A stretch of DNA of 64,000 bases. Origin: Dulcicalothrix desertica PCC 7102 (lineage in GTDB: Bacteria > Cyanobacteriota > Cyanobacteriia > Cyanobacteriales > Nostocaceae). The notes beneath the pieces are model-generated. The model ran no database searches. It had not been told where the DNA came from and saw nothing but the letters and a program-made list of their open reading frames with translations. The position numbers and the translations under genes are program-made. The stretch is from the NCBI RefSeq assembly GCF_003991905.1, contig NZ_RSCL01000006.1:156493-220492 (forward strand). Reading direction: 5' to 3'. Below are positions 8,599-56,077 of the stretch, piece by piece (position 1 is the stretch's first letter; each line of letters begins with the position of its first letter).

Positions 8599-8947
8599 TG
8601 GATATTAATAAGATAAGTTTTATCTTAGGCTTGTAAGTATAAACTAATAAATCTAAATATTAATTTAATTAATTTAACGTAATTATATTCAGTCCATTTT
8701 AATGGACTTATGCCCCACCGCCTATGGGTTTCAACCATAGGCGGTTATTGGTGAGATAACAAGTGTTTGTGTTGGGTTGCGCCTACCTCACCGGAATGCA
8801 CCAGGCTTAGAAACCGGGCAACAGTCACAAAAATTTCGCTATAAAACCCTAATTTATCGTAAAGAAGCCCGGTTTCTTTTGGCTTGTTGAGAATGCTGCA
8901 AGATGTGAGCTACGGCGTACTACGTAAACGCAAAGCCTCCACCCAAC
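8599..8947. other. Intergenic region with repeats
   Basis: Between two converging genes. It contains a family C inverted repeat (8809-8880) and the start of a family D unit (8928-8950). A further hairpin-like sequence lies near 8694-8740 (agtccattttaatggactta and cgcctatgggtttcaacca). No coding sequence is supported. Confidence 0.5.
8809..8880. repeat. Inverted repeat, family C
   Basis: AGAAACCGGGC at the left end and GCCCGGTTTCTT at the right end enclose about 45 AT-rich bases. The unit shares its ends with copies at 9673, 33051, 46049, 46678 and 58766. Confidence 0.65.
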
Positions 8948-8950
8948 CTA
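8928..8950 (-). repeat. Family D repeat supplying a stop codon
   Basis: Reads TAGGTTGGGTGGAGGCTTTG on the minus strand. The TAG that opens the repeat is the stop codon of the secreted protein gene at 8948-9610. Other family D copies are at 20209, 26501, 26549, 32228 and 60292. Confidence 0.7.
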
Positions 8951-9610
8951 TAATATATCGATGTTATCGACAATATCTAGCTTTTCTATTGCACGTATTT
9001 GAGCAGGAGTTAAATTTCCATATACCGCAGGACTGGAGTTATCGCCATTTACATTAAACCCTAATTCTTCAATTTTATTAATTGCCTCATTTACAACTCG
9101 TTCGTTTTCTATAGTTTGTTGTTGCGTATCTGTACTGACGGTCACTGGCGCCTGAATACTTTTTACATCTTGACGTTCTACTTTTAATTTAATTACCACA
9201 GAGATTTGGTCATTGGGTTTAGTATCTGCAAGTTTTTCAAATAAACCTTGTGATAGTTTTCCATATTTAGATACATAAGCAGTTTTATCTTGTTGCGCTA
9301 ATTTCTCTATATTCATTTCTTGTCCATTGGCATCGACTGCTATGTCAAATATTTTACCGTTACGTTTGTCTACAACTACAAATCCAAATCCACTTTTGCC
9401 AATAGTCCGAAAAGTTGGTTTAAAGGTATAGACAATTTCTAATTTGTCAATAGGAGCATTAACTTTTTTAGATAATTTTCTTAGTGCTGCTTGCTGTATT
9501 GATGCTTTAATTTCGCTTATATCTGATGCAAATGCGCGCGTATTGAAGGGTGCGCTGGTTGATAAAATTAGTAATAATAAGCAAGCAGTTGACAGCTTAT
9601 TTGAGTTCAT
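8948..9610 (-). CDS. Secreted protein of unknown function
   Basis: 220 residues. An N-terminal signal peptide (MNSNKLSTACLLLLILSTSA... with cleavage likely after AFA, about residue 28) points to export. The mature part has a TFRTIGKSGFGFVVVDKRNGKIFDIAVDANGQ segment that resembles a PepSY-like strand pattern, and a C-terminal part (NEAINKIEELGFNVNGD, GNLTPAQIRAIEKLDIVDNIDIL) that resembles a subtilase-prodomain or I9-inhibitor ferredoxin-like fold. Both likenesses are pattern impressions, not firm assignments. The stop TAG is the first three bases of a family D repeat. Confidence 0.75.
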   Translation of the reverse strand: MNSNKLSTACLLLLILSTSAPFNTRAFASDISEIKASIQQAALRKLSKKVNAPIDKLEIVYTFKPTFRTIGKSGFGFVVVDKRNGKIFDIAVDANGQEMNIEKLAQQDKTAYVSKYGKLSQGLFEKLADTKPNDQISVVIKLKVERQDVKSIQAPVTVSTDTQQQTIENERVVNEAINKIEELGFNVNGDNSSPAVYGNLTPAQIRAIEKLDIVDNIDIL

Positions 9611-9672
9611 TGACGTACAGCTTTCTGGTTGGGATTAGTTAAAGACGTTTATAATACCATTATCTGTTCCCA

Positions 9673-9740
9673 CAGAAACCTGGTTTTTTATTGAAATATT
9701 GTAATGAAAATAAATATTTTGGGTAGAAACCAGGTTTCTC
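9673..9740. repeat. Inverted repeat, family C
   Basis: CAGAAACCTGGTTTTTTATT on the left and TAGAAACCAGGTTTCTCCTG on the right, about 25 bases between the arms. It lies in the promoter side of the divergent genes at 9610 and 9843. Confidence 0.65.
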
Positions 9741-9842
9741 CTGACAATCAATTATAGTAGTGAATAAGTAAATAGCGTAGGCGCCATTTTATATATCATT
9801 AGGTATCTACAACAAAAATATTTATAATTAATTATTATACAC

Positions 9843-10715
9843 ATGAAAAATATTGCAGATACTGCCTATTTGGTAGCGATGTACCGTGCTTTGGAAAGCG
9901 AACGCGCTGATGCTTTATTTCATGACCCTTACGCACGTTTACTTGCAGGGGGTAAGGGAGCGATGTTGGTTGAGGTGCTTGGAGAAAAGGAAAAAATCAC
10001 CAATGCGATAGCGCTTCGTACTCGTCTTATCGATGAACAAATTGAAAAGCTGGTTCAGTCTCACGAGATTGATACGGTGTTAAACTTAGCGGCAGGACTA
10101 GATACTCGTCCTTATCGATTAAATCTTCCTGGGTCGCTTCGCTGGGTTGAAATTGATTTTGCTGATATTTTGGCTGAAAAGGAACAAAAACTCTTACAAG
10201 CTACACCTGTTTGTACTTTGGAGCGAGTTAAGTTAGATATTACAGATATTTCTGAAAGAAAACGTTTATTTGCTGAGATTACCAAAAATTCTAAACAAGC
10301 ACTTGTAATTACTGAGGGACTTCTTTCTTATTTACCAGAACCACAAGTAGCATCTATTGCTGCTGATATTTATGAGCAATCAAACTTGAACTGGTGGTTA
10401 TTTGAGTTAGAGTCAGCAGACACTCTACAAAATTATGATAAAATATACGCTCGTAAAATATTTGACCAATATTTTGCTAGTGGAAATAAAACTTTATTAT
10501 TTGCTCCTACTGAAGGAACAAGCTTTTTTAAAAAATACGGTTGGAGAGTCGCAGAATCACTATATGTATGGAAGGAGCTACGGCGCCTCAAGCGACAGGT
10601 AAAATTAGCTTGGTTAGTAGAAATGTTAATGAAGCTTAATCAAACACATTGTGAAACTCAGCAGCAAAGTAGCATAGTACTGCTTTGTAAAACTGGGTTA
10701 CTCGCAACTTCCTAG
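9843..10715 (+). CDS. Class I SAM-dependent methyltransferase, LCMT/TIGR00027-like
   Basis: 290 residues. The N-terminus (TAYLVAMYRALESERADALFHDPYARLLAG) and SAM-binding motif (VLNLAAGLDTRPYRL, followed by WVEIDFADIL and ITEGLLSYL) are typical of the leucine-carboxyl-methyltransferase-like group (PF04072). These enzymes methylate carboxyl or hydroxyl groups of small molecules or proteins; the substrate here is unknown. Its stop overlaps the stop of the convergent gene at 10712 within a shared CTAG. No SD-like sequence is obvious before the ATG. Confidence 0.9.
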   Translation: MKNIADTAYLVAMYRALESERADALFHDPYARLLAGGKGAMLVEVLGEKEKITNAIALRTRLIDEQIEKLVQSHEIDTVLNLAAGLDTRPYRLNLPGSLRWVEIDFADILAEKEQKLLQATPVCTLERVKLDITDISERKRLFAEITKNSKQALVITEGLLSYLPEPQVASIAADIYEQSNLNWWLFELESADTLQNYDKIYARKIFDQYFASGNKTLLFAPTEGTSFFKKYGWRVAESLYVWKELRRLKRQVKLAWLVEMLMKLNQTHCETQQQSSIVLLCKTGLLATS

Positions 10716-11158
10716 CTTTCTTCAGGATGACTACCATTACTGAAGGAGCTTTTCTCACGCTTTAAACTTTCTTCTAAAGCTTGAATTTGTTCGCGTCGTG
10801 CTTCTAATTCTAGCGAGCGACGTGCTAAATCTTGGTTTTGTAAAGTTAAATTTTGGCGCCATTGTTCCGCACGTTCTTTTTCTTGCGTCAGAAAATCTGG
10901 GGTAATGCCAGTACTTAAGTAAGTATTTACTAAAGATAGCACCCAATTTGTAGCATCTTCGAGTCGTTCAATATCACCAGTGGGTGAAAGTTCAACTAAA
11001 ACCAGTAGCTTTTCGGTCATCGCACTACTTTTACCCAAAAGAATAAACGCTTCTTCAGGAATAGTAGCCCACATATTTTCAGCTTCTTTACGAGCTAACA
11101 AACGTAACTGGTATTGTTCGAGAAATTCGTTTTTATGTACTTGGGCTAGATACAACAT
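10712..11158 (-). CDS. Coiled-coil protein of unknown function
   Basis: 148 residues from Met in MLYLAQVHKNEF. The C-terminal third (WRQNLTLQNQDLARRSLELEARREQIQALEESLKREK) is a strong coiled coil. The N-terminal half has no recognised domain. The frame stays open to an ATG ending at 11242, but those extra residues (MRCRDVINHVSTRA) are a translation of a family B palindrome at 11178-11205 and overlap the end of valS, so the shorter start is preferred. It follows valS on the same strand and may be cotranscribed. Confidence 0.75.
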   Translation of the reverse strand: MLYLAQVHKNEFLEQYQLRLLARKEAENMWATIPEEAFILLGKSSAMTEKLLVLVELSPTGDIERLEDATNWVLSLVNTYLSTGITPDFLTQEKERAEQWRQNLTLQNQDLARRSLELEARREQIQALEESLKREKSSFSNGSHPEES

Positions 11159-11177: not shown

Positions 11178-11205
11178 GTAGAGACGTGATTAATCACGTC
11201 TCTAC
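11178..11205. repeat. Interspersed palindrome, family B
   Basis: A 28-base near-perfect palindrome starting GTAGAGACGTGATTAA and continuing with its own complement. It sits just downstream of valS and in front of the coiled-coil gene. Copies lie near 16753, 31650, 42963, 47553, 55381 and 56050. Confidence 0.8.
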
Positions 11206-11213: not shown

Positions 11214-14200
11214 CTATTGTGATAATTTTTGAATGCGGTCACGTAAGATTTGTGCTTGTTTTTCGGCTTCGGCTAAATTATCGCGTACACCCTGAACAAC
11301 TTCAGGGGAAGCATTATTAACAAAACCTGGGTTATTAAGTCTAGCAGAAAGAGACTTGATATCGTTTTCGATTTTTTCAAGTTTTTTCTGTAGCTTGGCA
11401 CAAAAGGCAGCAATATCAACGACTCCGGTTAACGGCAAAATAACTTGTACAGTACCGATAACACCTGCAATAGCTTCTTCTTCTTGGTTCGGCTCAGATT
11501 CTACCGTTGGTTGTGGTACTTTTTCTACCGACTTGGATGCAGTTTGAAGTATTTGCTGTCTTTTTTCCTTGTTAAAAACATTATTCGCTAAATACCAACC
11601 AGAGAAACCAAGACCGACTACCTCAAAAAACCAAGCTAATACAGCAACATGATTAATAGCATTAAAAACAGCAAACCCAACTCTAACTGAAAGTATTACA
11701 CCAATAATCTTGAGATAAAGGCGCCACTGTTGAGGAATTTGGAATTTTTTCGTCGTGGTTGTAAGCACCCTTGTTGTAAGCACCGTTGTAAGCACTTCAG
11801 TGCTTTCCCCCATGCTTTCTTCATGTATCTCCACCTCCCCACCACCAACACTCAAACTCTCAACCTTCGCCAAATCCTTAATATAAACTTCTCCAGCAGC
11901 TAAAACCTCCCGTTCCCTACTACTATCAGTCTGCAAATTAATAGCAACCTTCACACCCGGTTTAACATCAGCTTCCGCACGTAAATTCCGAATAGTGCGA
12001 ATCACTCCAAATAACAAATCAAATGATTCTTCCAAACCTACATCAACCCGACTCTCATCAACCTCTGGATAACGCTGTAACGATAAACTTTCCTTAGAAT
12101 CGGCGCCTTTTTGAGTAAGCGTATGCCAAATTTCCTCAGTAATATGAGGCATATAAGGATGCAGTAACTTCAAAATCCCTTCTAAAACATAACCAAGCGT
12201 ATGCTGTGCAGCTTTACGTGAACTTGGGTCTGCATCACTTTGCAACCTAGATTTAACAAGCTCAATATACTGGTCGCAAAAATCACCCCAAATAAACTCA
12301 TAAAGTCCTTTTGCAGCCTCACCCAAACCATAATTATCAATATAATTACTAGTTTGTTTAATAACTTGGTTATACCGTGAAAGTATCCACTTATCGCTAA
12401 GTTCGCTTGGTTGCGGAACTCCCAGTTGTGCAGGAGTTTGTTCATCTAGGTTCATCATTACGAACCGCGAAGCATTCCATAGTTTGTTAGCAAAATTACG
12501 CGAAGCTTCAAACGACTGCGATTCATTTTTCTTACGGTCGTAGTCTAAACGAATATCTTGTCCGGCGCCAGCAACTTCTTTAATTAACGTATATCGCAGT
12601 GCATCAGTACCATATTTCTCAATTAGCAACAACGGGTCAATACCATTACCCGCTGACTTGGACATTTTCTTGCCCTTCTCATCAAGAACTAACCCGTGGA
12701 TGTAAACATCTTTAAACGGCATTTGTCCAGTAAAATGCCCAGCCATCATAGTCATTCTAGCTACCCAGAAAAATATAATGTCAAAGCCAGTGACTAAAAC
12801 ACTAGTAGGATAATACTTGGCTAAATCAGGAGTTTGTTCAGGCCATCCCAGTGTTGAAAACGGCCATAACCCAGCAGAAAACCAAGTATCTAATACATCT
12901 GGGTCACGTTCGAGTTTTACATCTTCGCCAAATTGTTGTTTTGCTTTTTGTATTGCTTCTTCTTCGTTTTTAGCAACAACAAAGGGAGTAGTATCTGTAA
13001 TTTCGCCATTTGTTTGGCTAACTGCATACCAAGCAGGAATTTGATGACCCCACCATAACTGCCGAGAAATACACCAATCTTCTAGCTTAACTAACCAGTC
13101 GCGATAAACTTTACTCCAACGCTGCGGAACATAGTTTGGAGAATTTTGATTATCAAGGCAAGAGAGCGCATTATCTGCCAAAGGACGAATTTTAACAAAC
13201 CACTGCGTGGAAAGTAGCGGTTCAACAGGAACCTTACCTCTTTCACTATATGGAACTGTATGTTTGTACTCTTCAATTTTAACTAAAACACCTAGCTCTT
13301 CCAGCTTTGCAACAACATTCTTACGCGCAACAAAACGGTCTTGCCCTTGAAATTCTCCGGCGTTTTCATTGAGGGCGCCGTTTTTATTCATAATATTGAT
13401 AAACGGCAAATTGTGACGTTTACCCATTTGAAAGTCGTTCAGGTCATGGGCAGGTGTAACCTTAACGCAACCAGTACCAAAAGTTGGGTCAACAAGTTCA
13501 TCAGCAATAATTGGAATTTCTCGATTCATTATTGGCAAAGTTAAAGTCTTGCCAATGAAATCTTTATAACGTTCGTCGTTTGGATTAACCGCAACTGCTG
13601 TATCACCCAACATTGTCTCAGGACGAGTTGTGGCAACTTCTACGAAACCCGAATTATCAGAAAGTGGGTAACGGAAATGCCAAAGGTTGCCATTTACTTC
13701 TTTTTGGTCAACCTCTAAATCTGAAACCGCCGATTGCGATTCAGGACACCAGTTTACTAAATACTCGCCTCTATATATTAGTCCTTCATCATAAATTTTA
13801 ACGAAAGCTTCTAATACAGCTTTTGATAAACCCTCATCTAAAGTGAACCGTTCGCGCGTCCAGTCCACCGACACACCTAAACGCCGCAACTGATTGACAA
13901 TAGTCCCTCCAGACTCAGCCTTCCACTGCCAAGCCTTTTCGAGAAACTTGTCGCGTCCCAAGTCGTAACGAGTTTTACCTTCTGCTTTGAGTTGCTTTTC
14001 AAGAATCGTTTGTACAGCAATACTCGCATGGTCAGTACCAGGGAGATATAAGGCGTTTTTGCCTTTCATCCGATGGTAGCGAACTAATGTATCAATCAGG
14101 GAGTTATCGAAAGCATGTCCCATATGCAAGCTTCCCGTAACGTTAGGAGGAGGAATAACGATACAGTACGGTTCGGCTTGGTTATTGGGGTCTGCCTTAT

Positions 14201-14297
14201 ATATATGGTTATCTTCCCAAAACTGTTGCCACTTAGATTCAGCGGCTTTTGGGTCGTAAACGCTAGGGAGGTTGGTGTTTGGTATTGTTGCGGTCAT
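11214..14297 (-). CDS. valS: Valyl-tRNA synthetase with CAAD membrane domain
   Basis: 1027 residues from [12 protein letters not shown]; the frame is also open 22 residues further. Class I synthetase: [15 protein letters not shown] (HIGH motif, about 50), the editing domain, [14 protein letters not shown] (KMSKS, about 540), an anticodon-binding domain, and a C-terminal coiled-coil tRNA arm ([16 protein letters not shown]). Between the anticodon domain and the arm, at about 828-925, is an insertion with a Thr-rich linker and two hydrophobic helices ([40 protein letters not shown]). This matches the CAAD domain, which anchors several aminoacyl-tRNA synthetases to thylakoid membranes in filamentous cyanobacteria. 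The linker sequence is a short interspersed repeat (11761-11806). Confidence 0.96.
11761..11806 (-). repeat. Repeat within the valS linker
   Basis: On the minus strand the sequence AAGCACTGAAGTGCTTACAA is followed by two further GTGCTTACAA units. It encodes the [19 protein letters not shown] linker of ValRS. A close copy, AAGCACTAAAGTGCTTACAA, occurs at 44209-44228 before the GTPase gene. Confidence 0.7.
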
Positions 14298-14392
14298 TCT
14301 GGGAAATAGTAAGTGTGGAAGTTTTTGTTCTTTATGTTTGTTCTTCTCTAAATTCTGCCACATGCTAACAAGAGTGTCGCAGAATCAATAAT

Positions 14393-18988: not shown

Positions 18989-20260
18989 ATGTTTGATGAC
19001 TTCTACTGGCGGCAAAGGCGGACAATAGAGGTTTTATCGTCGCTTAGTCATAGAAATGGCGAATTAAGCGAATATTTAAAAGAAATAGCTTGTGGTGTAA
19101 ATGAGTTAATTAGTATTGATTGGTCTGTTGTAACTATTTGTCAGCAAGGTTTTGGCAAGGTACTAGCTAGTAGTATAGATTTAGGTAGAGAAATAGGTAC
19201 TTATTCTGTACATGGTCAATTATCCGGAACAGTTATAGAAACTGGACGCAGTTTAATAGTCGAAGATACTAAGTGCTGTACAGAATATGGTCAAGCTCCA
19301 GAAGGTTATCAAGCTTACTTAGGAATACCATTGCGTACTTCTCATTCAGGAGTTATTGGAACAATTTGCTCATTTCATAAAGAACCACGCACTTTTTCTC
19401 CTTCAGAAGTTAATATAGTGGAATTATTTGCAGAACGTGCCGCTACAGCAATAGATAATTATCATCTTTATAAACAACAGCAGCAATTTAATGAACTATT
19501 AGAAGCTGAAGTCGCGCAGAGAACTGAAGAATTAAAAGCAGCACAAGCTCAACTGGTAGAACAAGAACGTCTTGCGGCAATTGGTGAATTTGCTGCTTGT
19601 ATTATCCATGAAATTCGCAATCCTTTGACAACCATGAAAATGGGATTGAATTATTTTAATAAACTGGATTTGAATGATGCTGCAAAATTACGATTATCTC
19701 TAGCGCTAGATGAAGGTAATCGTTTAGAAAGATTATTACAAGAAATATTACTTTACGCTAAACCCCAAGCTTTACAAGTGGCGCCAATTTGTCTCAACGA
19801 ATTCGTCACATGTCTTATAGAGTTTCTGCATATGCCAGAGGCAGAGGGAAGATATATAAAATTTACTCCTGCAAGTACGAACGTTCATGTACTCGGAGAT
19901 AAAGACAAGCTAAAACAAGTATTAATAAATATAATCCGTAATGCTTATGAAGCTGTTGCTGTGGAAGATACGATTAAGTTAGATATAGTATCAAATATTA
20001 ATCAAGTTACAATCAATGTGTATAATGGTGGCGCTATAATAGAACCAGAGGTTTTATCTAAACTAACTCAACCATTTTATTCAACAAAACCGGATGGTAC
20101 AGGACTGGGACTTGCAATAACTAAACGTATTGTTGAAGCACATGGTGGGAAGTTAGTGATTATATCTAATTTTGAACAAGGAACAATTGTAAGTATAATA
20201 TTACCTATGTTGGGTTCTGTTCCTCCATCCAACCTACAAATCATCAACAAGGTAAAATAA
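18989..20260 (+). CDS. GAF-domain sensor histidine kinase
   Basis: 423 residues, soluble. A GAF domain covers about 15-160 (GVIGTICSFHKEPRTFSPSEVNIVELFAERAATAIDNY), a coiled coil about 165-200 follows, then the H-box IHEIRNPLTTMKMG (phospho-His about 215) and an HATPase domain with NIIRNAYEA (N box), PFYSTKPDGTGLGLAITKRIVEAHGG (F/G boxes). The GAF region has no obvious chromophore Cys motif. The final 17 or so residues (MLGSVPPSNLQIINKVK) are encoded by a family D repeat. The gene ends 17 bases inside the convergent kinase gene. Confidence 0.9.
   Translation: MFDDFYWRQRRTIEVLSSLSHRNGELSEYLKEIACGVNELISIDWSVVTICQQGFGKVLASSIDLGREIGTYSVHGQLSGTVIETGRSLIVEDTKCCTEYGQAPEGYQAYLGIPLRTSHSGVIGTICSFHKEPRTFSPSEVNIVELFAERAATAIDNYHLYKQQQQFNELLEAEVAQRTEELKAAQAQLVEQERLAAIGEFAACIIHEIRNPLTTMKMGLNYFNKLDLNDAAKLRLSLALDEGNRLERLLQEILLYAKPQALQVAPICLNEFVTCLIEFLHMPEAEGRYIKFTPASTNVHVLGDKDKLKQVLINIIRNAYEAVAVEDTIKLDIVSNINQVTINVYNGGAIIEPEVLSKLTQPFYSTKPDGTGLGLAITKRIVEAHGGKLVIISNFEQGTIVSIILPMLGSVPPSNLQIINKVK
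20209..20237 (+). repeat. Family D repeat inside a kinase 3' end
   Basis: GTTGGGTTCTGTTCCTCCAT followed by CCAACCTAC. It is read through in a frame without a stop and provides the C-terminal tail of the histidine kinase. Confidence 0.7.
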
Positions 20261-24165: not shown

Positions 24166-25428
24166 TTAGCGACCAGTCAGAACCCCAGAGCGATCCCCTA
24201 TAGAGTCATTGAAAATAGCGCCTTTGTTTTCTAGGTCGCGTTCTACATCTTTAGATAGGTCAATATTATCTCCAAATATAGCGCCTTGTACTTTGACTCC
24301 GTTTAAATTAGTGCCACTCATTTTTACACCAACTAAGTTGGCATTACTCAAATCAGCATCATTTAAATTTGCACCACTTAAGTCAGCATTTTCCATAAAC
24401 GCACCAATCAAGTTAGCACCGCTTAAGTTAGCATTGCTTAGGTTAGCATTACTCAGGTCAGCATTACTCAGGTTTCGTCCAACATATCCAAAATTTACAA
24501 TTTCCCAAACTTGATGCCATTTTGTATCAAGTTTTGTTTTGTTGTTAATTGTTACCTCTCTTAAGTTAGCTGCACTTAAATCGGCATTACGGAGATCAGC
24601 ATTGCTAAGATCAGCATAACTTAGATCAACAGCAGTTAGGTCGGCGCCATTTAGATCTGCGCTATTAAGAAATGCATTATTTAATGCTGCATAGCTCAGG
24701 TCAGCATCGCGTAATGTGGCATAACTAAGGTTTGCAAATACTAGATTGGCACCACTTAGGTCTGCACCATTCAAATTAGCATGACTGAGGCGAGCAGCCA
24801 CTAACTTTATAAAGCTGAGGTCAGCACCGCTTAAATCAGCACTATACAAATCCGCGTAGCTTGAATCAGCATAACTTAAGTTAGTGTTACTTAAGTCACC
24901 ACCACTTAAGTTTGCATCTTTTAATTCAGCCTCACTCAAGTTCGCAGCCTTCAGATTAGCCTTGCTTAAGTTAGCACTGTTGAGGTTTGTCTTACTTAAA
25001 TTGGCAGCGTTCAAATCAGCATTGTTGAGATTAAAACTACTCAAGTATGCCCCAGAAAAATCTTTAGAAGGCAATTTAAGATAATCATCAGGTAACGGTA
25101 GCGAATCTTGATCAATTTCTTCGCTACTGATAGAGTTAGCTACATCAGAACTATCAAAAAAAATCTTGACCTCAAAAATTAATCCATCCTCAGATTTTAA
25201 AAATGCATTTCGTAAATCAATCTCTCCTGAGCGAATTTCCTGAAATCTTTTTAATGATACTGGTAGATAAAGCCATAAATCAAAACCTGCCTCTTCGTCT
25301 ACCCAAAGTGCAAAATATATATTAAGTGATACATTTCGGCAGGAAAAAAGTCTTGGACCGTTATAGTAGCTGTATATTTCAATAGTATCAAGCTCGCCTA
25401 AATCAGTATTTTGTGGTAGATAACTCAT
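24166..25428 (-). CDS. Pentapeptide-repeat protein
   Basis: 420 residues. Residues about 1-120 form a non-repetitive domain (ALWVDEEAGFDLWLYLPVSLKRFQEIRSGEIDLRNAF) of unknown type. Residues about 125-285 and 320-400 are two blocks of A(D/N)LxX pentapeptides (ADLSGANLVFANLSYATLRDADLS), predicted to fold as a right-handed quadrilateral beta-helix. A spacer of about 35 residues (VTINNKTKLDTKWHQVWEIVNFGYVGRN) separates the blocks. The start overlaps the stop of the upstream gene by four bases (ATGA), so the two are likely translated together. Function unknown. Confidence 0.9.
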   Translation of the reverse strand: MSYLPQNTDLGELDTIEIYSYYNGPRLFSCRNVSLNIYFALWVDEEAGFDLWLYLPVSLKRFQEIRSGEIDLRNAFLKSEDGLIFEVKIFFDSSDVANSISSEEIDQDSLPLPDDYLKLPSKDFSGAYLSSFNLNNADLNAANLSKTNLNSANLSKANLKAANLSEAELKDANLSGGDLSNTNLSYADSSYADLYSADLSGADLSFIKLVAARLSHANLNGADLSGANLVFANLSYATLRDADLSYAALNNAFLNSADLNGADLTAVDLSYADLSNADLRNADLSAANLREVTINNKTKLDTKWHQVWEIVNFGYVGRNLSNADLSNANLSNANLSGANLIGAFMENADLSGANLNDADLSNANLVGVKMSGTNLNGVKVQGAIFGDNIDLSKDVERDLENKGAIFNDSIGDRSGVLTGR

Positions 25429-32155: not shown

Positions 32156-32227
32156 TTAATTGCCAGTATCTTTCATTAATATTGCATACTGAGTATACAA
32201 TATTGCTATTAAATTGCAAGACTATTT

Positions 32228-32255
32228 GTTGGGTTTTGTTCCTCCACCCAACCTA
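32228..32255 (-). repeat. Family D repeat supplying the MOSC stop codon
   Basis: TAGGTTGGGTGGAGGAACAA on the minus strand. The opening TAG is the stop of the MOSC-domain gene (32253-32255). Confidence 0.75.
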
Positions 32256-33050
32256 AAATTGTATTATATCTTGCTTCTTTATGTGAGCTTCTGTAATAAT
32301 TGTTGCAATTACGCCTGTTTGAGTATGTTGAAAGTTATTCTTAAGAATTGTCAGCAAAGCAATGTCGCGTTCTCCGGTTTCGGGATTAACTTCAATATTT
32401 AAGCAGCGGTTAATGCGAGCGGTAACTTCAACTAGCGCGTTGCCTATTTTGATTTGTTTACCTACCCAGTCAAACTCATTCCATGCGGGTATTCCGTCTA
32501 CCACAATATTGGGACGGAAGCGACGAACGTCTATAATATGACCTGCTATTTCGCTTAAATTATCTATAGTTGCTTGACTAACTAATGATATATGTCCTGC
32601 TTCTCTATCTTGATAGCGCGTTTTGTTATATGACCCTACTAATTCTAAACGCGCCCTTTCTCTTGCGCTTTGACTCACACCTGGACTAGGATAGCTTGCT
32701 GCTAAATATCCCGTAAAAAACGTTGAAACTTCATGGCGCCCAGTTATGGTACTCGTATCGGCAACTAGTAATTCTATTCCTTTACGTTTGATTGTTAATT
32801 TTTCTGATGTTGGGTTGTAAAAACAGTCTAACGCTGCTAGCGAGTGCCAGTCGTTTTGCATCGCAAAGTTAACTTTCTTCATCCAAGATACTTCAACATC
32901 GATATCTGGCAGATTTTTTTTGTACATCAAAGCAAACGCTCGGTCTCCTGGAATGCCATGACCGACTTTGAGGTAAACAGATTCTTGTACCTGTGGGGTT
33001 AACCCTTTTATAGGATGGATAAATAACTGTTTGATAAAAATATTTGTCAT
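32253..33050 (-). CDS. MOSC-domain protein
   Basis: 265 residues. N-terminal MOSC_N-type beta barrel (VKQLFIHPIKGLTPQ, VGHGIPGDRAFALM) and a C-terminal MOSC domain (ISLVSQATIDNLSEIAG, RRFRPNIVVDGIPAWNEFDWVGKQIKIGNALVEVTARINRCLNIEVNPETGERD), with the conserved Cys in RINRCLNIEVNP. MOSC proteins carry molybdenum-cofactor-linked or sulfur-transfer activities. The ATG abuts a family C repeat unit that fills the gap to the upstream FTR1 gene; the stop is part of a family D repeat. Confidence 0.87.
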   Translation of the reverse strand: MTNIFIKQLFIHPIKGLTPQVQESVYLKVGHGIPGDRAFALMYKKNLPDIDVEVSWMKKVNFAMQNDWHSLAALDCFYNPTSEKLTIKRKGIELLVADTSTITGRHEVSTFFTGYLAASYPSPGVSQSARERARLELVGSYNKTRYQDREAGHISLVSQATIDNLSEIAGHIIDVRRFRPNIVVDGIPAWNEFDWVGKQIKIGNALVEVTARINRCLNIEVNPETGERDIALLTILKNNFQHTQTGVIATIITEAHIKKQDIIQF

Positions 33051-33118
33051 AGAAACCGGGTTTCTTGCTTGATAACTTGTAATAAAGATAACATTTTACA
33101 TAGAAACCCGGTTTCTTT
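33051..33118 (-). repeat. Family C unit forming the FTR1-MOSC junction
   Basis: Two inverted arms (AGAAACCGGGTTTCTTGC and TAGAAACCCGGTTTCTTT) enclose about 30 AT-rich bases. The unit starts at the base next to the MOSC start codon. On the minus strand the left part encodes the tail ERNRVSM and the stop of FTR1. Confidence 0.75.
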
Positions 33119-34076
33119 CTGGTTTTTTACCACCACCATTAAGACTACGAAGATAAATACCACCAACTGTGAACAAGAAAACTAAATAAGCGATGGCTTG
33201 TACAATATAAAGATGATGCTGGTATCCAAATAATGCTTTGAAAATAACACCAGGAAACTCTTCGTCAGGTAAAATTTTAGAAGTATCCCAAACCATTGGC
33301 CCGAGAATGCACGAATGAACTTTTGTAAAACGTTCATAGTAAAAACAAAGGTCTTGCGATGCCCGACTATAAGACGCTAATGATGCTGCCGCTGCGTCAA
33401 ACCTGCTTAATGCTGTTACAACTAATCCTGCTACAATTAATACCAGTAAAATACCCATCACTTGGAAAAACTGACGAATATTAAACTTAACTCCTAATTT
33501 AAATAACCCAACACCGATAAAAGCAGCACTAATAATACCTAATACTGCACCAATCCCGGCGCCATACGCTCCACTTCCAGTATTAGTAGTAATTAATGCG
33601 ACTGTCTCAAAACCTTCGCGAACAACCGCAACAAAAATTAATGTAAAAATATTTCGCGCCGCAGTTTTATCATTTTTCAATGCATCTGATAAGGCGCCTT
33701 CAACAGAAGCTTTCATAAATCTGGCTTGGTTAGTCATCCAGATTAACATCCAACTTAACATAATAACAGCAAGCACGCTGAATATTCCTTCATAAAGGAA
33801 TTCAATAACACCTGCATACTGTGGAAACGCGCGTTGCAAAGCTGGTACAAATAATTGAAACAAGAACGCTAAAACAAAACTTGCGGCAACTCCTGTTCCT
33901 AAACCTACATATACCCAGCGGTTGAGTTGTGTTTGTCCGGCTTTTTTGAGAAATGCCAACACAATTCCCACAACAAGCGCAGCTTCGACTCCTTCGCGAA
34001 GCGCAATAAAAAATGTAGATAAAGCAGCAGTAAAATCCATAATTATGAGTTGTAGTTGTAGGGTGGCCGAAGCCAC
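33096..34076 (-). CDS. FTR1-family iron permease
   Basis: 326 residues; seven membrane segments. The two REGxE iron-binding motifs are present: REGVEAALVVGIVLAF (about 27-42) and REGFETVALITTN (about 154-166). In fungi Ftr1 imports iron oxidised by a multicopper oxidase; bacterial members (EfeU type) act similarly. The last seven residues (ERNRVSM) are encoded by a family C repeat. The start MASATLQLQL is a reasonable choice; a Met in MDFTAALSTFFIALREGVEAAL (34040) is more typical. Seven bases separate it from the ferritin-like gene upstream. Confidence 0.93.
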   Translation of the reverse strand: MASATLQLQLIIMDFTAALSTFFIALREGVEAALVVGIVLAFLKKAGQTQLNRWVYVGLGTGVAASFVLAFLFQLFVPALQRAFPQYAGVIEFLYEGIFSVLAVIMLSWMLIWMTNQARFMKASVEGALSDALKNDKTAARNIFTLIFVAVVREGFETVALITTNTGSGAYGAGIGAVLGIISAAFIGVGLFKLGVKFNIRQFFQVMGILLVLIVAGLVVTALSRFDAAAASLASYSRASQDLCFYYERFTKVHSCILGPMVWDTSKILPDEEFPGVIFKALFGYQHHLYIVQAIAYLVFLFTVGGIYLRSLNGGGKKPERNRVSM

Positions 34077-34518: not shown

Positions 34519-34680
34519 TATTTATCAATTTACCTTACATGCATTCCAGGACGATTTACTAGGTAATTTTAGCCTTGGTTATCATGGCTCTTTACAATTA
34601 CATAGTTTTTTGGTTCATCCTGTATTTTAACCCCCTATTAAACTTCTATATAGTGTTGTATGGATAATGTTTTGATGAAT

Positions 34681-34707
34681 GCACAGGCAAGATGCCTGTG
34701 CTACAAG
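34681..34707 (-). repeat. Variant family A palindrome supplying a stop codon
   Basis: On the minus strand CTTGTAGCACAGGCATCTTG followed by CCTGTGC. The TAG is the stop of the HhH lipoprotein (34701-34703). Confidence 0.65.
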
Positions 34708-35741
34708 GCTTTTTGTGATTCTGCTTCTATGGTTTTTACTAGCTTGGTAACTTCAAGAGGCGCCTTTACGGGTGTTGCAGGCGGAATAGCTGCGGGCCAT
34801 ACTTTAATTAGTTCAGCAATACTAGCTTGAATATTTTTGTGAACTTCGGGATTTTCTTTTGCCATGCTGGTGGCAACGGTTTTGTAAAGTTCGTTGGCGT
34901 AGACTACAAAACCGCGTGAGTCTTGATATTCAATTGCAGCAGAAATTTTACCATCTGCGACAGCGGCGCCATATTCTGAGTTTGCAGAGTCAAGTAAACC
35001 GTTAATTACTTGTAGGTTAAAAGCATTCTTTTCGCGTTCTGCTTGGGGAAGTGCTGCTATGGCGCCATCAACCGCTTGCATTGAATTTGTAAAGTTGGTT
35101 TTAATAGAGTCTGCTTTGCCATTTGATTTGACTAAATCTTGCAAGCTAATCAAAGTTGTTTTAAATTCTTTTACTTTGCGCTCGTTGAGTTGTTCCTCTA
35201 CATCAGCATAAATTTCTTCTACTGGGTGTCCAATATGTGGTTCTGCTGCCTTGGGTTGATTTTGGTCGAGTAATTCTTTGGCCACTATCAAGTGTCCTTT
35301 CATTAGTCCCAATTTGGTCATGTAGTCAACATCTTTCGCTTCACCCGTCAGCTTGACTTCTTCTATCGTCACCATGTCTTTAATTTTGTCAAACTGCTCT
35401 TGAGTGACGACTTTTTTAGCTACCAATTCCTCTGGTGAAGCATAAGGACGACCCGCTTGAATTTTATTCGACAATGCAGGCACACCAAGCATTCCTTCAA
35501 ACTTGTCTAACTCCGATAAAATCGCAGAATTTATATTTACTTTCTTACCATGACCACTATGTGAGCTAGTAGTTGAAGCATCCGTAACTTGAGGAGTTGA
35601 AGCAACTGGGGCTGCGTTACCTCCGTTATTCGATGCTTCGGGCGCCCCACCACTAGCACAAGAACTAAGTGCAACGATGGCGCAAGCTGCGAATGCCAAA
35701 AATGCATAACGTGGTCTAATCACTTTTTTACTCCTAAACAA
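34701..35741 (-). CDS. Helix-hairpin-helix lipoprotein
   Basis: 346 residues. Lipobox VALSSC (Cys about 28) after a TM-like leader, a low-complexity Asn/Ala/Thr/Ser linker to about 65, then a ComEA-like helix-hairpin-helix (KVNINSAILSELDKFEGMLGVPALSNKIQAGRPYASPEELV, about 68-110), followed by a long alpha-helical domain (GLMKGHLIVAKELLDQNQPKAAEPHIGHPVEEIYADVEEQ) that may be a periplasmic electron- or metal-handling module. The His-containing stretch AEPHIGHPVEE is notable. It stands between FTR1/ferritin genes and the multicopper oxidase; function unknown but co-directional. Confidence 0.85.
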   Translation of the reverse strand: MFRSKKVIRPRYAFLAFAACAIVALSSCASGGAPEASNNGGNAAPVASTPQVTDASTTSSHSGHGKKVNINSAILSELDKFEGMLGVPALSNKIQAGRPYASPEELVAKKVVTQEQFDKIKDMVTIEEVKLTGEAKDVDYMTKLGLMKGHLIVAKELLDQNQPKAAEPHIGHPVEEIYADVEEQLNERKVKEFKTTLISLQDLVKSNGKADSIKTNFTNSMQAVDGAIAALPQAEREKNAFNLQVINGLLDSANSEYGAAVADGKISAAIEYQDSRGFVVYANELYKTVATSMAKENPEVHKNIQASIAELIKVWPAAIPPATPVKAPLEVTKLVKTIEAESQKAL

Positions 35742-41802: not shown

Positions 41803-42720
41803 CTATACATTACTCTTGTGGAAGAGGCATCCCTGCGTGTCTCTTATAACATTCCCCTGTAACCCCCCAGTATGTATCAACAAAACACGGCGCTTATCAA
41901 AATACCCTTCTTTAACTAAATCCATAACACCATAAAACATCTTAGCAGTATACACATAATCAAGCGGTACACCACACTCCATCTCAAACTCGCGCGCAAA
42001 CCTTAACAACTCATCATTAACTTTCGCATAACCACCAAAATGATAATTACATATCAACTCCCACGATACATTTATATTATGTTGATACGGCGCCATTAAA
42101 CCTTCAATATCCTGCTTTAAAAAATCTCCCCCTTTTAAAACAGGAAAACCAATTAAATGCTGCTGAGTATTTAAAGAAAGTGCAACACCCGCTAAAGTCG
42201 TCCCAGTCCCGCAAGCTATACATGCAACATCAAACTCAATATCTTGACTAATTATTTCCCTACAACCCCTCACACCATCCAAATTACAACCACCTTCAGG
42301 AATTATAAACACCTTACCAAAGCGGTCTAGTAAATCTTTACGTAGCGTTTCGCTATTTCTTTGTTTATAAGTTTGTCTATCAACATAAACAAGTTGCATT
42401 CCCTGACTTGTGGCAAACTCTAATGTGGGGTTAAGTGGTAATGTCTCTTCTCCACGAATAACACCTATAGTTTTTAACCCAAATAAATTACCCGCCGCCG
42501 CAGTTGCATATATATGATTAGAATAGGCGCCGCCAAAAGTAAGTATAGTATCTAAGTTTTCTCGTTTCGCTGCTTCAAGGTTATATTTCAGCTTATACCA
42601 TTTGTTACCACTAATCAGCGGATGCACCAAGTCTAAACGTAATACGTAAAGTTCTACATCTTTTGCAAGCGCAACCTTACTATCAATTTTTTGTATAGGA
42701 GGAGAAGCAAAAGGGGACAT
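41803..42720 (-). CDS. PLP enzyme, ACC deaminase / D-cysteine desulfhydrase family
   Basis: 305 residues, fold type II PLP enzyme. SGNKWYKLKYNLEAA gives the PLP lysine (about 40), TFGGAYSNHIYATAAAG the Asn/His motif, and VACGTGTTLAGVALS the phosphate-binding loop. The family includes 1-aminocyclopropane-1-carboxylate deaminase and D-cysteine desulfhydrase; which one is unresolved. The last 14 or so residues (IRDTQGCLFHKSNV) are encoded by a family A palindrome at 41815-41843, replacing an expected ending. Convergent with dgt. Confidence 0.87.
   Translation of the reverse strand: MSPFASPPIQKIDSKVALAKDVELYVLRLDLVHPLISGNKWYKLKYNLEAAKRENLDTILTFGGAYSNHIYATAAAGNLFGLKTIGVIRGEETLPLNPTLEFATSQGMQLVYVDRQTYKQRNSETLRKDLLDRFGKVFIIPEGGCNLDGVRGCREIISQDIEFDVACIACGTGTTLAGVALSLNTQQHLIGFPVLKGGDFLKQDIEGLMAPYQHNINVSWELICNYHFGGYAKVNDELLRFAREFEMECGVPLDYVYTAKMFYGVMDLVKEGYFDKRRVLLIHTGGLQGNVIRDTQGCLFHKSNV
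41815..41843. repeat. Family A palindrome at the convergent ends
   Basis: CTTGTGGAAGAGGCATCCCT followed by the inverted arm GCGTGTCTC. Lies at the end of the PLP enzyme gene, just past the dgt stop. Confidence 0.65.
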
Positions 42721-47552: not shown

Positions 47553-47580
47553 GTAGAGACGTGATTAATCACGTCTCTAC
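47553..47580. repeat. Family B palindrome giving the tlyA stop codon
   Basis: GTAGAGACGTGATTAATCAC followed by its mirror half. On the minus strand its TAG (47577-47579) terminates the tlyA-like gene. Lies between that gene and cp12. Confidence 0.78.
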
Positions 47581-48413
47581 AATTCATTTACTGCTGTAAC
47601 AGTTAGTTGCTTGATTGCTTCAAGTTCTAACGGCGCCGTTATACTTTCCATTGATAACCACAGTAAGTATTCTACATTTCCAGCGGGTCCCGTGATTGGC
47701 GACCACGTTAAACCTTTATATTTCCATCCAAGTTCTTGTGCTGTCTGCAAAACTTGGTAAATAGCGTCAGCTTGATGTAGTGGGTCACGCACTACTCCTT
47801 TTTTGCCAACTCGGTTTTTTCCAACTTCAAATTGTGGTTTTACTAGTAGTACCATTTCTCGCGGTGGTTGGGAGAGGCGCCACAGTGCTGATAAAATTTT
47901 GGTGACAGAAATAAATGAGACATCGACGACTATAAAGTTGGGTTGTTCTAATCCCCCCCCAAACTCTTGACCAGGGGGGGAGCTTTTGTATATTTGTTCT
48001 GGTGTGAGATGTCTGATATTTGTGCGTTCTAGTAAGATAACTCTGGGGTCGTTTCGCAGTTTCCAGTCTACTTGACCATAACCTACGTCTACTCCATAAA
48101 CTAATTTAGCTCCTGCTTGGAGTAAACAGTCTGTAAAACCACCTGTGGAGATACCCGCATCTAAGCATACACGTGCGGTTACGTCTATATTAAATGTTAA
48201 AAGTGCTTTTGCTAGTTTTTCGCCGCCTCTGGAAACGAAGCGAGATTTTTGTTTAACTGTTATAGAGGCGCCTGTGTCTATTTCGGTTCCAGCTTTATCA
48301 ATTATGTTACCATCAACTGTCACCTCTCCTGCTTGGATGAGACGCTGTGCTAATGCACGGGAAGTACATAAGTTTCGTTCGACAAGTAAAGTATCGAGTC
48401 GTTGTTTCGCCAA
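47577..48413 (-). CDS. tlyA: TlyA-family rRNA 2'-O-methyltransferase
   Basis: 278 residues: an S4 RNA-binding domain (RLDTLLVERNLCTSRALAQRLIQAGEVTVDG, about 4-60) and an FtsJ-like methyltransferase domain with motif I (VCLDAGISTGGFTDCLLQAGA, about 82) and the catalytic pattern DVSFIS ... LVKPQFEVGK. TlyA methylates ribose of 16S and 23S rRNA; some members have lost hemolysin-like roles. The stop codon TAG is provided by a family B repeat. Confidence 0.9.
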   Translation of the reverse strand: MAKQRLDTLLVERNLCTSRALAQRLIQAGEVTVDGNIIDKAGTEIDTGASITVKQKSRFVSRGGEKLAKALLTFNIDVTARVCLDAGISTGGFTDCLLQAGAKLVYGVDVGYGQVDWKLRNDPRVILLERTNIRHLTPEQIYKSSPPGQEFGGGLEQPNFIVVDVSFISVTKILSALWRLSQPPREMVLLVKPQFEVGKNRVGKKGVVRDPLHQADAIYQVLQTAQELGWKYKGLTWSPITGPAGNVEYLLWLSMESITAPLELEAIKQLTVTAVNEL

Positions 48414-53600: not shown

Positions 53601-53622
53601 ACACTTATTTTGTTCTTTTATT

Positions 53623-53889: not shown

Positions 53890-54135
53890 ATGAGAAGCGT
53901 ATATAGCTTAAGTAACAACGAATTCGCCAAAAAATTAACAGCAGAAGAGCGCCAAGTACGTTTGAACAAAGCCTCTAAAGAGTATATGCGAGGCAGAATA
54001 TCCAGACAACAGTTTCACCAAGCAGAACGAGACTACGGTACAGATTATACGCTTGTAACATTTGGTTTAGCCAAACAACGAAGTGTAATACCGCGTTTTA
54101 TAAATAAACTAACATCAATTTTTAGCAGTAAATAG
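53890..54135 (+). CDS. Small protein of unknown function
   Basis: 81 residues, basic. MRSVYSLSNNEFAKKLTAEERQVRLNKASKEYMRGRISRQQFHQAERDYGTDYTLVTFGLAKQRSVIPRFINKL. No family recognised. The stop is one base before the stop of the convergent gene on the other strand. Weak ribosome site (AAGTAG). The sequence composition looks coding. Confidence 0.6.
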   Translation: MRSVYSLSNNEFAKKLTAEERQVRLNKASKEYMRGRISRQQFHQAERDYGTDYTLVTFGLAKQRSVIPRFINKLTSIFSSK

Positions 54136-54136
54136 C

Positions 54137-54973
54137 TTAAGGAAGCAAAGGATGCATATGATGTGCTTTTGCAACGAGCATAGCAGTAGAAAGACGACCA
54201 GAAATAGCAACCAACAGGTTTTTAACTGCACTTGAATCAAAAGCAGTAACACAATTACTATACAAGCACATAACCCCAAGACAATCGCCCATATCCCCAA
54301 TAATGGGAACTGTAATTAAAGATTTATACGGGAAACGGCGCCGTTTAGCCTTATCAAAAAAGATATATTCGGGGTTATCTGCTTGTAACTCTCCATTTTT
54401 TCTCGACAAATGCACAACGTAGCTTTTTTTATCTAAAAAAGTCAGACCTGCAATACCACGTCTAGCATTAGAACCATTTCCAATATAAAAGCGTGCTTTA
54501 TCAGGACTTTCATTAGGATACTCAAGGAAAAACCAAGTAGTAAGATAATCAGGGTCAGTAGTATCAGGAGCGTATACAGCGATACCACAACCGTCTAAAA
54601 GTTGGAGGAATTCAAGAGTTTGCTCTAAAAATTCATCGAAAAAACGTTGTAAAGCTAGACTAGCATCAGGCGCCTCACATAACTTAGGCAGCAAATACCA
54701 TAGAGTTTCATCAAGAGAATGAAGTTTTACAGATATTTGATGTGCGGCATGATAGCGCTGTATAACCAACAGACAAGGAAGAACCACAACAAGCCCACAT
54801 AACAGCGCAGCCCACAGAGGAACTTTTATAGATATGAGAATAGGTAAAACGTGTTTAAGAGCCTCATCAGCTGTGTTTCCAATAATGCCCTGAAAAGCAA
54901 AAGCAATTAGAGTACCTATCGGTGCGATAGATATTTTTAACCAAATTGGAATTTTGGGTAGATTCAATGCCAT
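54137..54973 (-). CDS. Membrane-anchored GAF-like sensor protein
   Basis: 278 residues. Two N-terminal TM helices (LKISIAPIGTLIAFAFQGIIG, VPLWAALLCGLVVVLPCLLVIQRY), then a cytoplasmic domain (about 85-275) whose end (RRRFPYKSLITVPIIGDMGDCLGVMCLYSNCVTAFDSSAVKNLLVAISGRL) is a GAF domain. No output domain follows. May work with a separate kinase or act as a ligand sensor (inference). GGCGCC sites lie within the gene (54339, 54668). Confidence 0.8.
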   Translation of the reverse strand: MALNLPKIPIWLKISIAPIGTLIAFAFQGIIGNTADEALKHVLPILISIKVPLWAALLCGLVVVLPCLLVIQRYHAAHQISVKLHSLDETLWYLLPKLCEAPDASLALQRFFDEFLEQTLEFLQLLDGCGIAVYAPDTTDPDYLTTWFFLEYPNESPDKARFYIGNGSNARRGIAGLTFLDKKSYVVHLSRKNGELQADNPEYIFFDKAKRRRFPYKSLITVPIIGDMGDCLGVMCLYSNCVTAFDSSAVKNLLVAISGRLSTAMLVAKAHHMHPLLP

Positions 54974-55404
54974 AACGACCTGTCATAATTGGCAGCGTGA
55001 CATAATACCATCGATGTAGGTATCAATACTATACTAACAACCTCTAGATAAATTTACCTGTATATATATTAATGTTGTTGCCAAATATGTTATGTGACAG
55101 AAAAGCAAAAATCACTGTTCAATTGATTTCTCACCCTAATACCTGTGTTCAATCAAGTGTTATTAACAGTACTTACACTTAGACAAACTCGACAATAATA
55201 ATCTTAAAAGCTACACCAATAATGTTTATAACTCAATCACTACTTAATCATAATAAATATTTTATACAATCTAAGCCGATTACAGTTATTGTTAAGAAGT
55301 ATTGTGTTGAAATCTTGACATGGAAGTTAAAACTAGTGGAGGTTGAGGCGCCTTCCGACTTAAAATTACTATACCGATAAGTAGAGACGTGATTAATCAC
55401 GTCT
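54974..55404. other. Intergenic region before the tandem Uma2 genes
   Basis: 431 AT-rich bases with a GGCGCC near 55347 and a family B palindrome at 55381-55408. No gene recognised. Confidence 0.45.
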
Positions 55405-55408
55405 TTAC
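55381..55408. repeat. Family B palindrome (variant end)
   Basis: GTAGAGACGTGATTAATCAC continuing with GTCTTTAC. On the minus strand its GTAAAGAC end provides the stop TAA of the Uma2 gene that ends at 55405. Confidence 0.8.
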
Positions 55409-55980
55409 CATACAAACTGCATATCTAAAATAAACCCTGGTAACACGTCTTCTCCTGATAAAGTCGTAGGAGCATCTAATATTTCAACTTGTTGTCCTAA
55501 ACGGTAAATTTCTACGCGACGATTTTTTCTATCTATTAACCAACCTAATCTAACTTTCGCTTCGATATATTCGCGCATTTTGGCTTGTGTTTCGCTCAAG
55601 CTATCAGATGGAGACATTAATTCCAATACAAAGTCAGGAGCAATGGGAGGAAATTTCTCTCGTTGTGCGTCGGTAAGTCCATTCCATCTTTCTAATTGTA
55701 TCCATGATACATCTGGGGAACGGTCGGCGCCATTAGGAAGTTTAAAACAAGTAGAGGAATCAAATACTTCTCCTAATTGAGTTTGCTCGTTCCACACAAC
55801 AAACCTCGTGGTTAGTTTAGCGTTACGTTTTCCTGTTTCTCCTCCTGTTGGTGGCATTATAACTAGTTTCCCCCATTGGTTACGCTCAAATTTGATATCA
55901 GGATTATCCTGACACAGTTGGTAAAATTGGTCGTCAGTCAGCTTGACTACACTGTTAAAGTCAATAGTAATGGCAGTCAT
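55405..55980 (-). CDS. Uma2 family nuclease-like protein, copy 1
   Basis: 191 residues from MTAITIDFNSVVKL. Uma2 (DUF820) core: NPDIKFERNQWGKLVIMPPTGGETGKRN, FDSSTCFKLPNGADRSPDVSWIQLERW, PDFVLELMSPSDSLSETQAKMREYIEA, GWLIDRKNRRVEIY. The D..ELxS..K pattern is of the restriction-endonuclease fold; activity is not established. It is a recent duplicate of the gene at 56074, by eye about 90% identical. Extra 10 codons upstream (55981-56010) are open but not conserved between copies. Confidence 0.87.
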   Translation of the reverse strand: MTAITIDFNSVVKLTDDQFYQLCQDNPDIKFERNQWGKLVIMPPTGGETGKRNAKLTTRFVVWNEQTQLGEVFDSSTCFKLPNGADRSPDVSWIQLERWNGLTDAQREKFPPIAPDFVLELMSPSDSLSETQAKMREYIEAKVRLGWLIDRKNRRVEIYRLGQQVEILDAPTTLSGEDVLPGFILDMQFVW

Positions 55981-56049
55981 GGCATCTATATTACATGTAG
56001 GCGCCTCCATTTTAACGTAGATAAGTTTTGCTTAGACCGTGAATAAGAA

Positions 56050-56077
56050 GTAGAGACGTGATTAATCACGTCTTTAC
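56050..56077. repeat. Family B palindrome (variant end)
   Basis: Identical to the copy at 55381-55408. The right end gives the TAA of the second Uma2 gene. The repeat was duplicated together with the gene. Confidence 0.8.

Follow-up and report, generated by a model that had tools for sequence, protein, structure and literature searches.

Probable REP-type palindromes, several families of them with a GTAG foot, as a source of stop codons and C-terminal tails in Dulcicalothrix desertica

Introduction

Why do so many genes in one stretch of a cyanobacterial genome end inside, or at the very edge of, a short palindromic repeat? The question is raised by 64,000 nucleotides of Dulcicalothrix desertica PCC 7102 (contig NZ_RSCL01000006.1, positions 156,493 to 220,492 of the forward strand; this whole stretch is called the window below, and its own numbering is used). 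An earlier note on this DNA listed nine genes whose stop codons or last residues appeared to come from dispersed palindromes of four families, A to D, and suggested that the repeats insert preferentially at the 3′ ends of genes, are selected as terminators, or both. Here we analyze these palindromes, together with a fifth family, E, in the window, in a larger sample of the genome and in relatives of the same genus.

The repeats are very probably several families of mobile palindromes of the repetitive extragenic palindromic (REP) type, which come to provide stop codons or new protein tails, either through a conserved tetranucleotide at the foot of the palindrome or by being read through, at places where an insertion does least harm. 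The foot reads GTAG and so holds TAG, the amber codon. This REP-type identity, with the GTAG foot as the source of TAG, is what the earlier note missed.

The genome (11.42 Mb in 109 contigs; the window lies on contig C6) is labelled G000 in comparisons with its relatives, G001 to G006. A tree of six genomes pairs G000 with G002 (support 0.96) and places the other branches weakly. Repeats were mapped in 2.8 Mb of the genome, consisting of seven 400-kb pieces with the window among them, and genes were predicted by our own hexamer-based caller (2113 in the 2.8 Mb, 1487 in the first 2.0 Mb).

Results

Nine genes of the window end in or just past a palindrome

Reading of the DNA, alignment of relatives and translation agree that each of the nine genes ends in or just past a dispersed palindrome and that the repeats supply stop codons and C-terminal residues; the earlier gene-by-gene description was correct in substance in all nine cases. 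Pfam supports eight of the nine gene labels. The Pfam scan of the protein encoded at 8948 gave no hit, and its description as secreted, like that of the HhH gene product as a lipoprotein, is carried over from the earlier note. In the eight supported genes, the last residue matched by Pfam lies 2 to 222 residues from the C-terminus, and at most 25 residues from it in seven.

In four genes the stop codon is the TAG of an element foot. More specifically, the TAG of tlyA (47577-48413) is formed by bases 2-4 of a perfect 28-nt family B palindrome, which carries a foot at both ends (47553..47580; hairpin of -20.7 kcal/mol, z -8.1; B and C elements, and the diverged A element below, are given without strand). 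The HhH gene (34701-35741) is closed by the TTGTAG foot of a family A variant on the minus strand (34680..34706; hairpin of -16.3 kcal/mol), and the MOSC gene (32253-33050) and the 8948 gene by family D elements on the minus strand (32227..32256, hairpin of -10.3 kcal/mol, and 8936..8951, respectively). The base preceding the foot TAG in this genome is G in tlyA and the HhH gene, A in the 8948 gene and T in the MOSC gene; the full GTAG is seen at the 8948 stop only in relatives G005 and G006, and at the MOSC stop only in G003, G005 and G006.

Two Uma2 genes (55405-56010 and 56074-56739) stop with TAA at the same element position as the TAG of tlyA, the edge of their B copies (55381..55408 and 56050..56077) being GTAA. 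They form a tandem duplication that includes the B element (window positions 55379-56668; blocks 95-98% identical at a spacing of 669 nt), so the nine genes represent at most eight independent events. For the remaining three genes, the reading frame continues through the element and stops beyond its core. The FTR1 gene (33096-34076) reads through a C element (33102..33116) and ends in ERNRVSM; another C copy (33051..33065) stands 51 nt away, a spacing like that of REP doublets forming hairpins (REPINs). The histidine kinase gene (18989-20260) reads through a D element on the plus strand (20210..20240) and acquires the tail MLGSVPPSNLQIINKVK, and the gene for a pyridoxal-phosphate (PLP) enzyme (41803-42720) reads through a diverged A element (41809..41848) that the mapping patterns missed.

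Protein tails turn over within the genus

Compared with relatives of the same genus, six of the nine genes differ in their tails and three end at the same codon without a repeat. The 8948 protein ends in YEAVNQPG in G003 and G004, where the element is absent; these residues are missing in G000, G005 and G006, where the D element is present, and they are also missing in G002, which has a different GTAG element (GTAGGGTGGGC...) at the same codon. The HhH protein has lost IDKASTKAQL in G000 and its sister G002 through a deletion that reaches up to a REP; G004 carries this REP past the native stop. Read-through of the D element by the kinase gene is seen in G000, G004 and G006, while G002, G003 and G005 lack the element and have other tails. 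The FTR1 gene reads through the C element in G000, G004, G005 and G006; the element is absent from G003, where the tail is KKPVTQKG, and from G002, as judged from the DNA alignment only. The PLP-enzyme gene has six distinct tails in six genomes: G000 and G003 carry an A element, G004 and G005 have short tandem repeats, G002 has neither of the two, and G006 is different again. Finally, tlyA ends in NEL (G000, G006) or NEINKS (G004, G005), each time at a B foot; in G002 and G003, where the end lies at heptad repeats, it closes with NEIK or NEISKKC.

Identical ends without the repeat, which the earlier note had named as telling against its proposal, were found for three of the nine genes, namely MOSC and both Uma2 genes. 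The MOSC gene has the identical TAG and the same length in G004, which lacks the D element. The last residue of Uma2 is W with or without a B copy; the B-free genes of G003 and G001, with the same W and stop, may be paralogues, and G002 has a fragment only. Comparison of the relatives' loci with the 2.8 Mb (83 alignments) gave six indels near elements, one of them near a B copy, and no clean empty site at a stop codon.

Repeats are abundant, avoid genes and overlap stop codons more often than expected

In the 2.8 Mb we mapped 827 copies: 248 of family A, 136 of B, 303 of C, 66 of D and 74 of E, the last being the palindrome CCCCCTTATTAAGGGGG, of which none was found in the window. The patterns were controlled by their reversals in the first 2.0 Mb, where forward patterns hit 164 (A), 99 (B), 226 (C), 45 (D) and 49 (E) sites and reversed patterns 0, 0, 2, 15 and 0; the D pattern is therefore loose and D counts are noisy. 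A k-mer search without any input on families recovered words from all five of them, along with tandem heptads and a few others. The 28-nt B palindrome occurs at 162 sites genome-wide with up to three mismatches. An Rfam search of the window gave 0 matches at gathering score.

Of the 827 copies, 43 lie on a stop codon, 4 on a start codon only, 44 inside genes and 736 between genes (for these classes family A was taken with 7 extra bases per side). All five families are depleted within genes, B for instance with 14 copies against 103.8 expected. The chance of stop overlap was assessed by 300 circular shifts of positions, counting cores only. Families B (11 overlaps, 3.1 expected), C (17, 3.6 expected) and D (6, 0.9 expected) exceed random placement 3.5- to 6.7-fold, and no shift reached the observed number. 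Under the same strict rule the window contains 5 stop overlaps among 31 mapped copies, denser than the 43 among 827 of the sample; the other four of the nine genes are read-throughs, a foot outside the mapped core (MOSC) and the unmapped copy (PLP enzyme). An excess over chance is seen for B, C and D and not for A and E. The figure of nine such genes in 64 kb overstates the genome-wide rate, since the window is denser than the sample and two of the nine are one duplicated gene.

Copies are also concentrated near the 3′ ends of genes. In the first 2.0 Mb, copies at most 10 nt from a 3′ end number 24 for B (14.2 expected), 34 for C (12.0 expected) and 28 for A (16.1 expected), against 0 (4.2 expected), 3 (7.6 expected) and 1 (5.4 expected) at the same distance from 5′ ends; D and E have few copies near 3′ ends (4 against 1.5 expected, and 0 against 2.5). 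Enrichment close to 3′ ends is borne out by A, B and C, for which a lack of enrichment at gene ends, the other finding named as adverse, is not what the map gives; it does not extend to a stop-codon excess in A or E. An example of a neighboring copy that does not supply the stop is the B element at 11178..11205, 8 nt past the stop of the gene at 11214-14363. Internal B copies, found on contigs C1 and C4 to C7, lie far from gene ends: 13 of 14 are at least 620 nt from the stop, in open frame, in genes of about 460-1930 amino acids, and 8 of those 13 encode a peptide of the RDVINHVST type.

Elsewhere in the window, positions 24289-25041 hold a repeat array in 15-nt register within a minus-strand open reading frame (ORF) of 420 amino acids (24166-25428).

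The foot of the palindrome probably accounts for many of the stop codons

Stops fall at fixed positions of the elements. Among the 11 B overlaps, 10 have the stop at bases 2-4 of the element (7 TAG, 3 TAA, two of the latter being the Uma2 duplicates), and in all 6 D overlaps the stop is the foot TAG, preceded by G in 5. The 17 C overlaps occupy two adjacent registers, 8 being TAG with the T outside the core and 9 being TAA or TGA with two bases outside; registers -2 and -1 hold 8 and 9 copies, against 1 copy at register 0 and 10 over registers 1-3.

B and D copies that lie elsewhere than at stops have the same feet. When the search pattern did not specify the foot, GTA was still the triplet before GAGACG-N10-CGTCTC in 163 of 192 strand readings of B, and 26 of 28 D cores had TAC after them. 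Logos built from copies at a distance of more than 40 nt from the 3′ end of any gene show this foot too; the patterns used for these included it. For family C, a logo that averages the two strands, and could in this way hide an asymmetric foot, showed no GT[AG]G; 45% of copies have A as the base before AGAAACC.

Family A provides an internal control. From its 248 copies, 232 feet were recognized (one copy may yield two, and copies without a recognizable foot are uncounted), 205 of them GTGG and 27 GTAG. Two of the 27 GTAG feet serve as stops, compared to none of the 205 GTGG feet (p = 0.013). A test blind to families gives the same picture: of 106 genes ending in GTAG, 16 have a perfect hairpin (7 bp or more) that begins 0-3 nt past the stop, compared to 8 of 386 genes ending in another TAG (p = 1e-6). 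Because the conserved GTAG foot itself contains a TAG codon, no special targeting of stop codons is needed.

Twelve B copies reach into the last 60 nt of a gene, and 10 of them have the foot codon in the gene's reading frame (p = 0.0005 for a null of one third), the outcome to be expected under selection against longer foreign tails. At 2-12 nt past stops, each nucleotide position carries about three to four B copies; by our own estimate, the ten in-frame cases would arise if insertions were tolerated over roughly the last three codons.

REP-associated transposases are flanked by the repeats

Eight genes of the genome match PF01797. Three of them, L187 (80.6 bits), L188 (106.1 bits) and L189, pass the cut-off of 80 of NF047646, the NCBIfam model of the REP-associated tyrosine transposase (RAYT); L186 is below it, three others are IS200 transposases, and L185 is broken and was left out of the scan. 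Within 1 kb of the RAYT gene L187 (C2:308579-308908) lie 11 C copies on both sides, many at 52-nt spacing, where 0.25 are expected; within 500 nt of L188 lie 4 A copies, again on both sides, where 0.12 are expected. Family E is found near the Y1 transposase genes L183, L184 and L186. Comparison of motifs by eye puts L188 near subclass 2.7 and L189 near subclass 2.8 of the TnpAREP scheme in the literature (PMC6006769).

The arrangement of the repeats is that of REPINs as well. Distances between neighboring C copies are 50-53 nt in 111 instances, and 41 of 43 neighboring A copies at most 120 nt apart face each other. Both the C pairs and the facing A pairs have the REPIN layout.

Family B is shared across phyla

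Family B consists of the arms GTAGAGACG...CGTCTCTAC; one end reads GT[AG]G and the opposite end its complement. Within each arm stands GAGACG/CGTCTC, which we take to be a type IIS restriction site. The exact B 30-mer is also present in records of Calothrix and Scytonematopsis, in three species of Flavobacterium (a single shared locus, judging by the flanks), in a Bacteroidales metagenome-assembled genome (MAG) and in three MAGs labelled Microgenomates, Roizmanbacteria and Shapirobacteria, MAG labels that may be wrong. Allowing any ten bases between the arms and at most one mismatch, we counted 213-532 copies in six Calothrix/Scytonematopsis genomes and 2-6 in seven others. Without mismatch, the arms occur in 37 of 296 genomes of the phylum of one Flavobacterium (itself included), at 1-21 copies each; the reversed control hit one genome.

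Across these phyla the 9-nt arms are constant, and the centers differ widely and are mostly self-complementary. All five center pairs form in 62 of 68 copies here, in 51 of 145 IMG/VR copies (four pairs in a further 76) and in 45 of 76 Bacteroidota copies among the matches listed. The spread of B fits the 'double-foot' REPs of TnpAREP subclass 2.4, which are described as abundant in Cyanobacteria and Bacteroidetes, scattered in other phyla, and, like B, framed by GT[AG]G and, on the opposite side, C[TC]AC (PMC6006769).

Discussion

How could mobile palindromes come to end so many proteins? Families B, D and A have a GTAG or GTGG hairpin foot, and copies are dispersed, mainly intergenic and often close to 3′ ends, as in GTAG-tagged REPs. 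The GTAG tetranucleotide is reported to be recognized by REP transposases (PMC6006769). Taken as a whole, the elements, feet, placement, transposase neighborhoods and differences among relatives are best accounted for as follows. B is a REP of the double-foot type, opening with GTAG and closing with the complement CTAC. The GTAG foot is also found in D and in a minority of A copies, most recognized A feet being GTGG, and C lies in REPIN-like pairs. A and C cluster around REP-associated transposase genes, by whose products the elements are presumably mobilized. Copies would persist where they are least harmful, that is 3′ of genes and in the last few codons, rarely within genes and almost never on starts, a placement that purifying selection may have caused. 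When an element lands in frame, or a deletion fuses a gene to its foot, the gene would come to stop at the TAG within GTAG, or at a TAA descended from that TAG; in other frames the ribosome would read into the element and add a short new tail. With C-termini mostly at or beyond the end of the recognized domain, such changes would be tolerated, and tails would turn over between species.

Several observations weigh against this account. A and E show no stop-codon excess in the shift test (1 overlap against 2.8 expected, and 2 against 1.0). Nine C copies adjoin TAA or TGA stops (junctions TA|A and TG|A), the next register holding a single copy, and a GTAG foot does not explain these nine; nor does that foot fully explain the hairpin excess after GTAA stops in the family-blind test (17 of 290 against 20 of 1010, p = 0.001). 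B copies peak 4-6 nt past stops: 20 copies lie there, compared to 4 nearer the stop (1-3 nt) and 9 farther from it (7-9 nt). Such a peak is not what simple tolerance would lead one to expect. In E. coli, REPs less than 16 nt past the stop are reported to lower translation (PMC12306157), which makes this peak worth testing for such an effect. Avoidance of genes by B is not evident in IMG/VR contigs: of 101 copies set against mechanically called ORFs of at least 60 amino acids, 45 fall between ORFs, 7 on a stop and 49 within an ORF or on a start. In our own genome the gene ends are those of our own caller. As for the transposases, the eight Y1-transposase loci contain no D core and a single B copy, near the sub-threshold L186. 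Target-site duplications of A, B, C and E, looked for at lengths 2-6 and 8, gave no clear case; the strongest signal came from 3-nt repeats flanking B, with 11 cases among 130 where 5.2 are expected (z 2.7, best of 13 offsets).

An alternative, which we regard as possible though doubtful as the main cause, is that the palindromes are kept at gene ends as transcription terminators or protectors of mRNA 3′ ends, the overlap with stops being a by-product. Intergenic copies of B and A are enriched in convergent gaps (40 of 111 and 78 of 231) and scarce in divergent ones (8 of 111 and 27 of 231), where the shares of gap length are 0.158 and 0.310; C and D, however, show no such bias, and E is only depleted in divergent gaps. 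On folding, a B copy and three A copies reach -16 to -21 kcal/mol, one of the A copies with a z of only -2.1, whereas a folded C copy is weak (-3.6 kcal/mol) although C has the most stop overlaps. In copies close to a 3′ end, with the upstream gene setting the orientation, we counted runs of five T at most 16 nt beyond the whole hairpin. B has such a run in 13 of 108 copies and A in 14 of 166, compared to 4 and 6 copies with a run ahead of the hairpin and a background of 3.7% (random positions 5-60 nt past stops). Yet about nine in ten A and B copies lack the run, and in C (4 of 119), D (0 of 23) and E (3 of 31) it is not in excess of the preceding side. Cyanobacteria have no Rho, and most transcription units of Synechococcus are described as not ended by known pathways (PMC13289151), which speaks for such a role; element-free ends are common among the relatives, which speaks against it. 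Some A and B copies may be intrinsic terminators, canonical ones being a minority.

It seems improbable that insertion is instead aimed at stops, with a transposase reading the gene's own GTAG or GTAA as its target, landing in register and at times swapping TAA for the foot TAG, so that the protein is left intact. The unchanged last codons of Uma2 and MOSC in repeat-free relatives, the crowding of C into registers -2 and -1, the hairpins after GTAA stops and the in-frame B feet speak for such homing. Against this, the tail is truncated or rewritten in five of the nine genes and that of tlyA varies, the HhH end arose by deletion up to a REP that in G004 sits 3′ of the native stop, B and D copies away from stops have the same feet, and the repeat-free Uma2 relatives are possibly paralogues. 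If true, homing would be a self-limiting insertion rule for an element that crosses phyla with invariant arms (GTAGAGACG...CGTCTCTAC) and a drifting self-complementary center. Mere coincidence, in which many repeats 3′ of genes together with drift of stop codons yield the overlaps, could draw on the B density just past stops, which carried about three codons upstream gives the ten in-frame cases, and on A and E not rising above chance, but is rendered quite unlikely by B, C and D exceeding all 300 shifts and by stops that fall at one or two fixed positions of the element.

The reading as REP-type elements places these repeats among known systems. Rickettsia palindromic elements are palindromes read in frame inside genes; the internal B copies in open frame resemble them, whereas the cases described here are C-terminal, mostly supply stops and involve shorter elements. 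GTAG-tagged REPs are reported, in Cyanobacteria among others, as 20-40 nt palindromes edged by GTAG, located predominantly in convergent and unidirectional gaps near 3′ ends, and such termini are described as a frequent source of TAG stops (Di Nocera et al. 2013, PMC3733652). Unlike in that description, the GTAG of B is paired inside the palindrome and present at both ends, and in the parts of that paper compared, neither counts of supplied stops nor a cyanobacterial tail comparison was found; both are given here. The transposase expected for subclass 2.4, with the motif set NH[IFV]H / WQ / YIxNNP (PMC6006769), was seen in none of the eight PF01797 matches when these were compared by eye, with L185 broken and a gene outside the assembly conceivable. 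As in the REPIN and RAYT systems described (PMC2817692, PMC3116915), C pairs at 50-53 nt and facing A pairs both cluster around a RAYT gene; C differs in lacking a GT[AG]G foot in the both-strand-averaged logo. The QMITE elements of Coxiella likewise overlap C-termini by 1 to 50 bp, with one C-terminal extension, but are larger (QMITE2 150-190 bp) and have direct repeats (PMC5896051). A literature search with the literal B, A and C repeat strings gave no title on these repeats among the matches listed, which means little.

The phenomenon is real and largely explained, and its kind and central finding are already in print. What is added here is the lineage, the counts, the turnover of tails within a genus, and a palindrome of constant arms and variable center common to several phyla. 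For annotators, differences in tails are to be expected at such genes. The repeats also provide material for asking whether transcript ends in cyanobacteria, which lack Rho, partly rest on such hairpins. A puzzling pattern of stop codons is explained by the GTAG tetranucleotide reportedly recognized by REP transposases, and the genus offers a countable case in which mobile palindromes, together with other short repeats, keep rewriting the ends of proteins.

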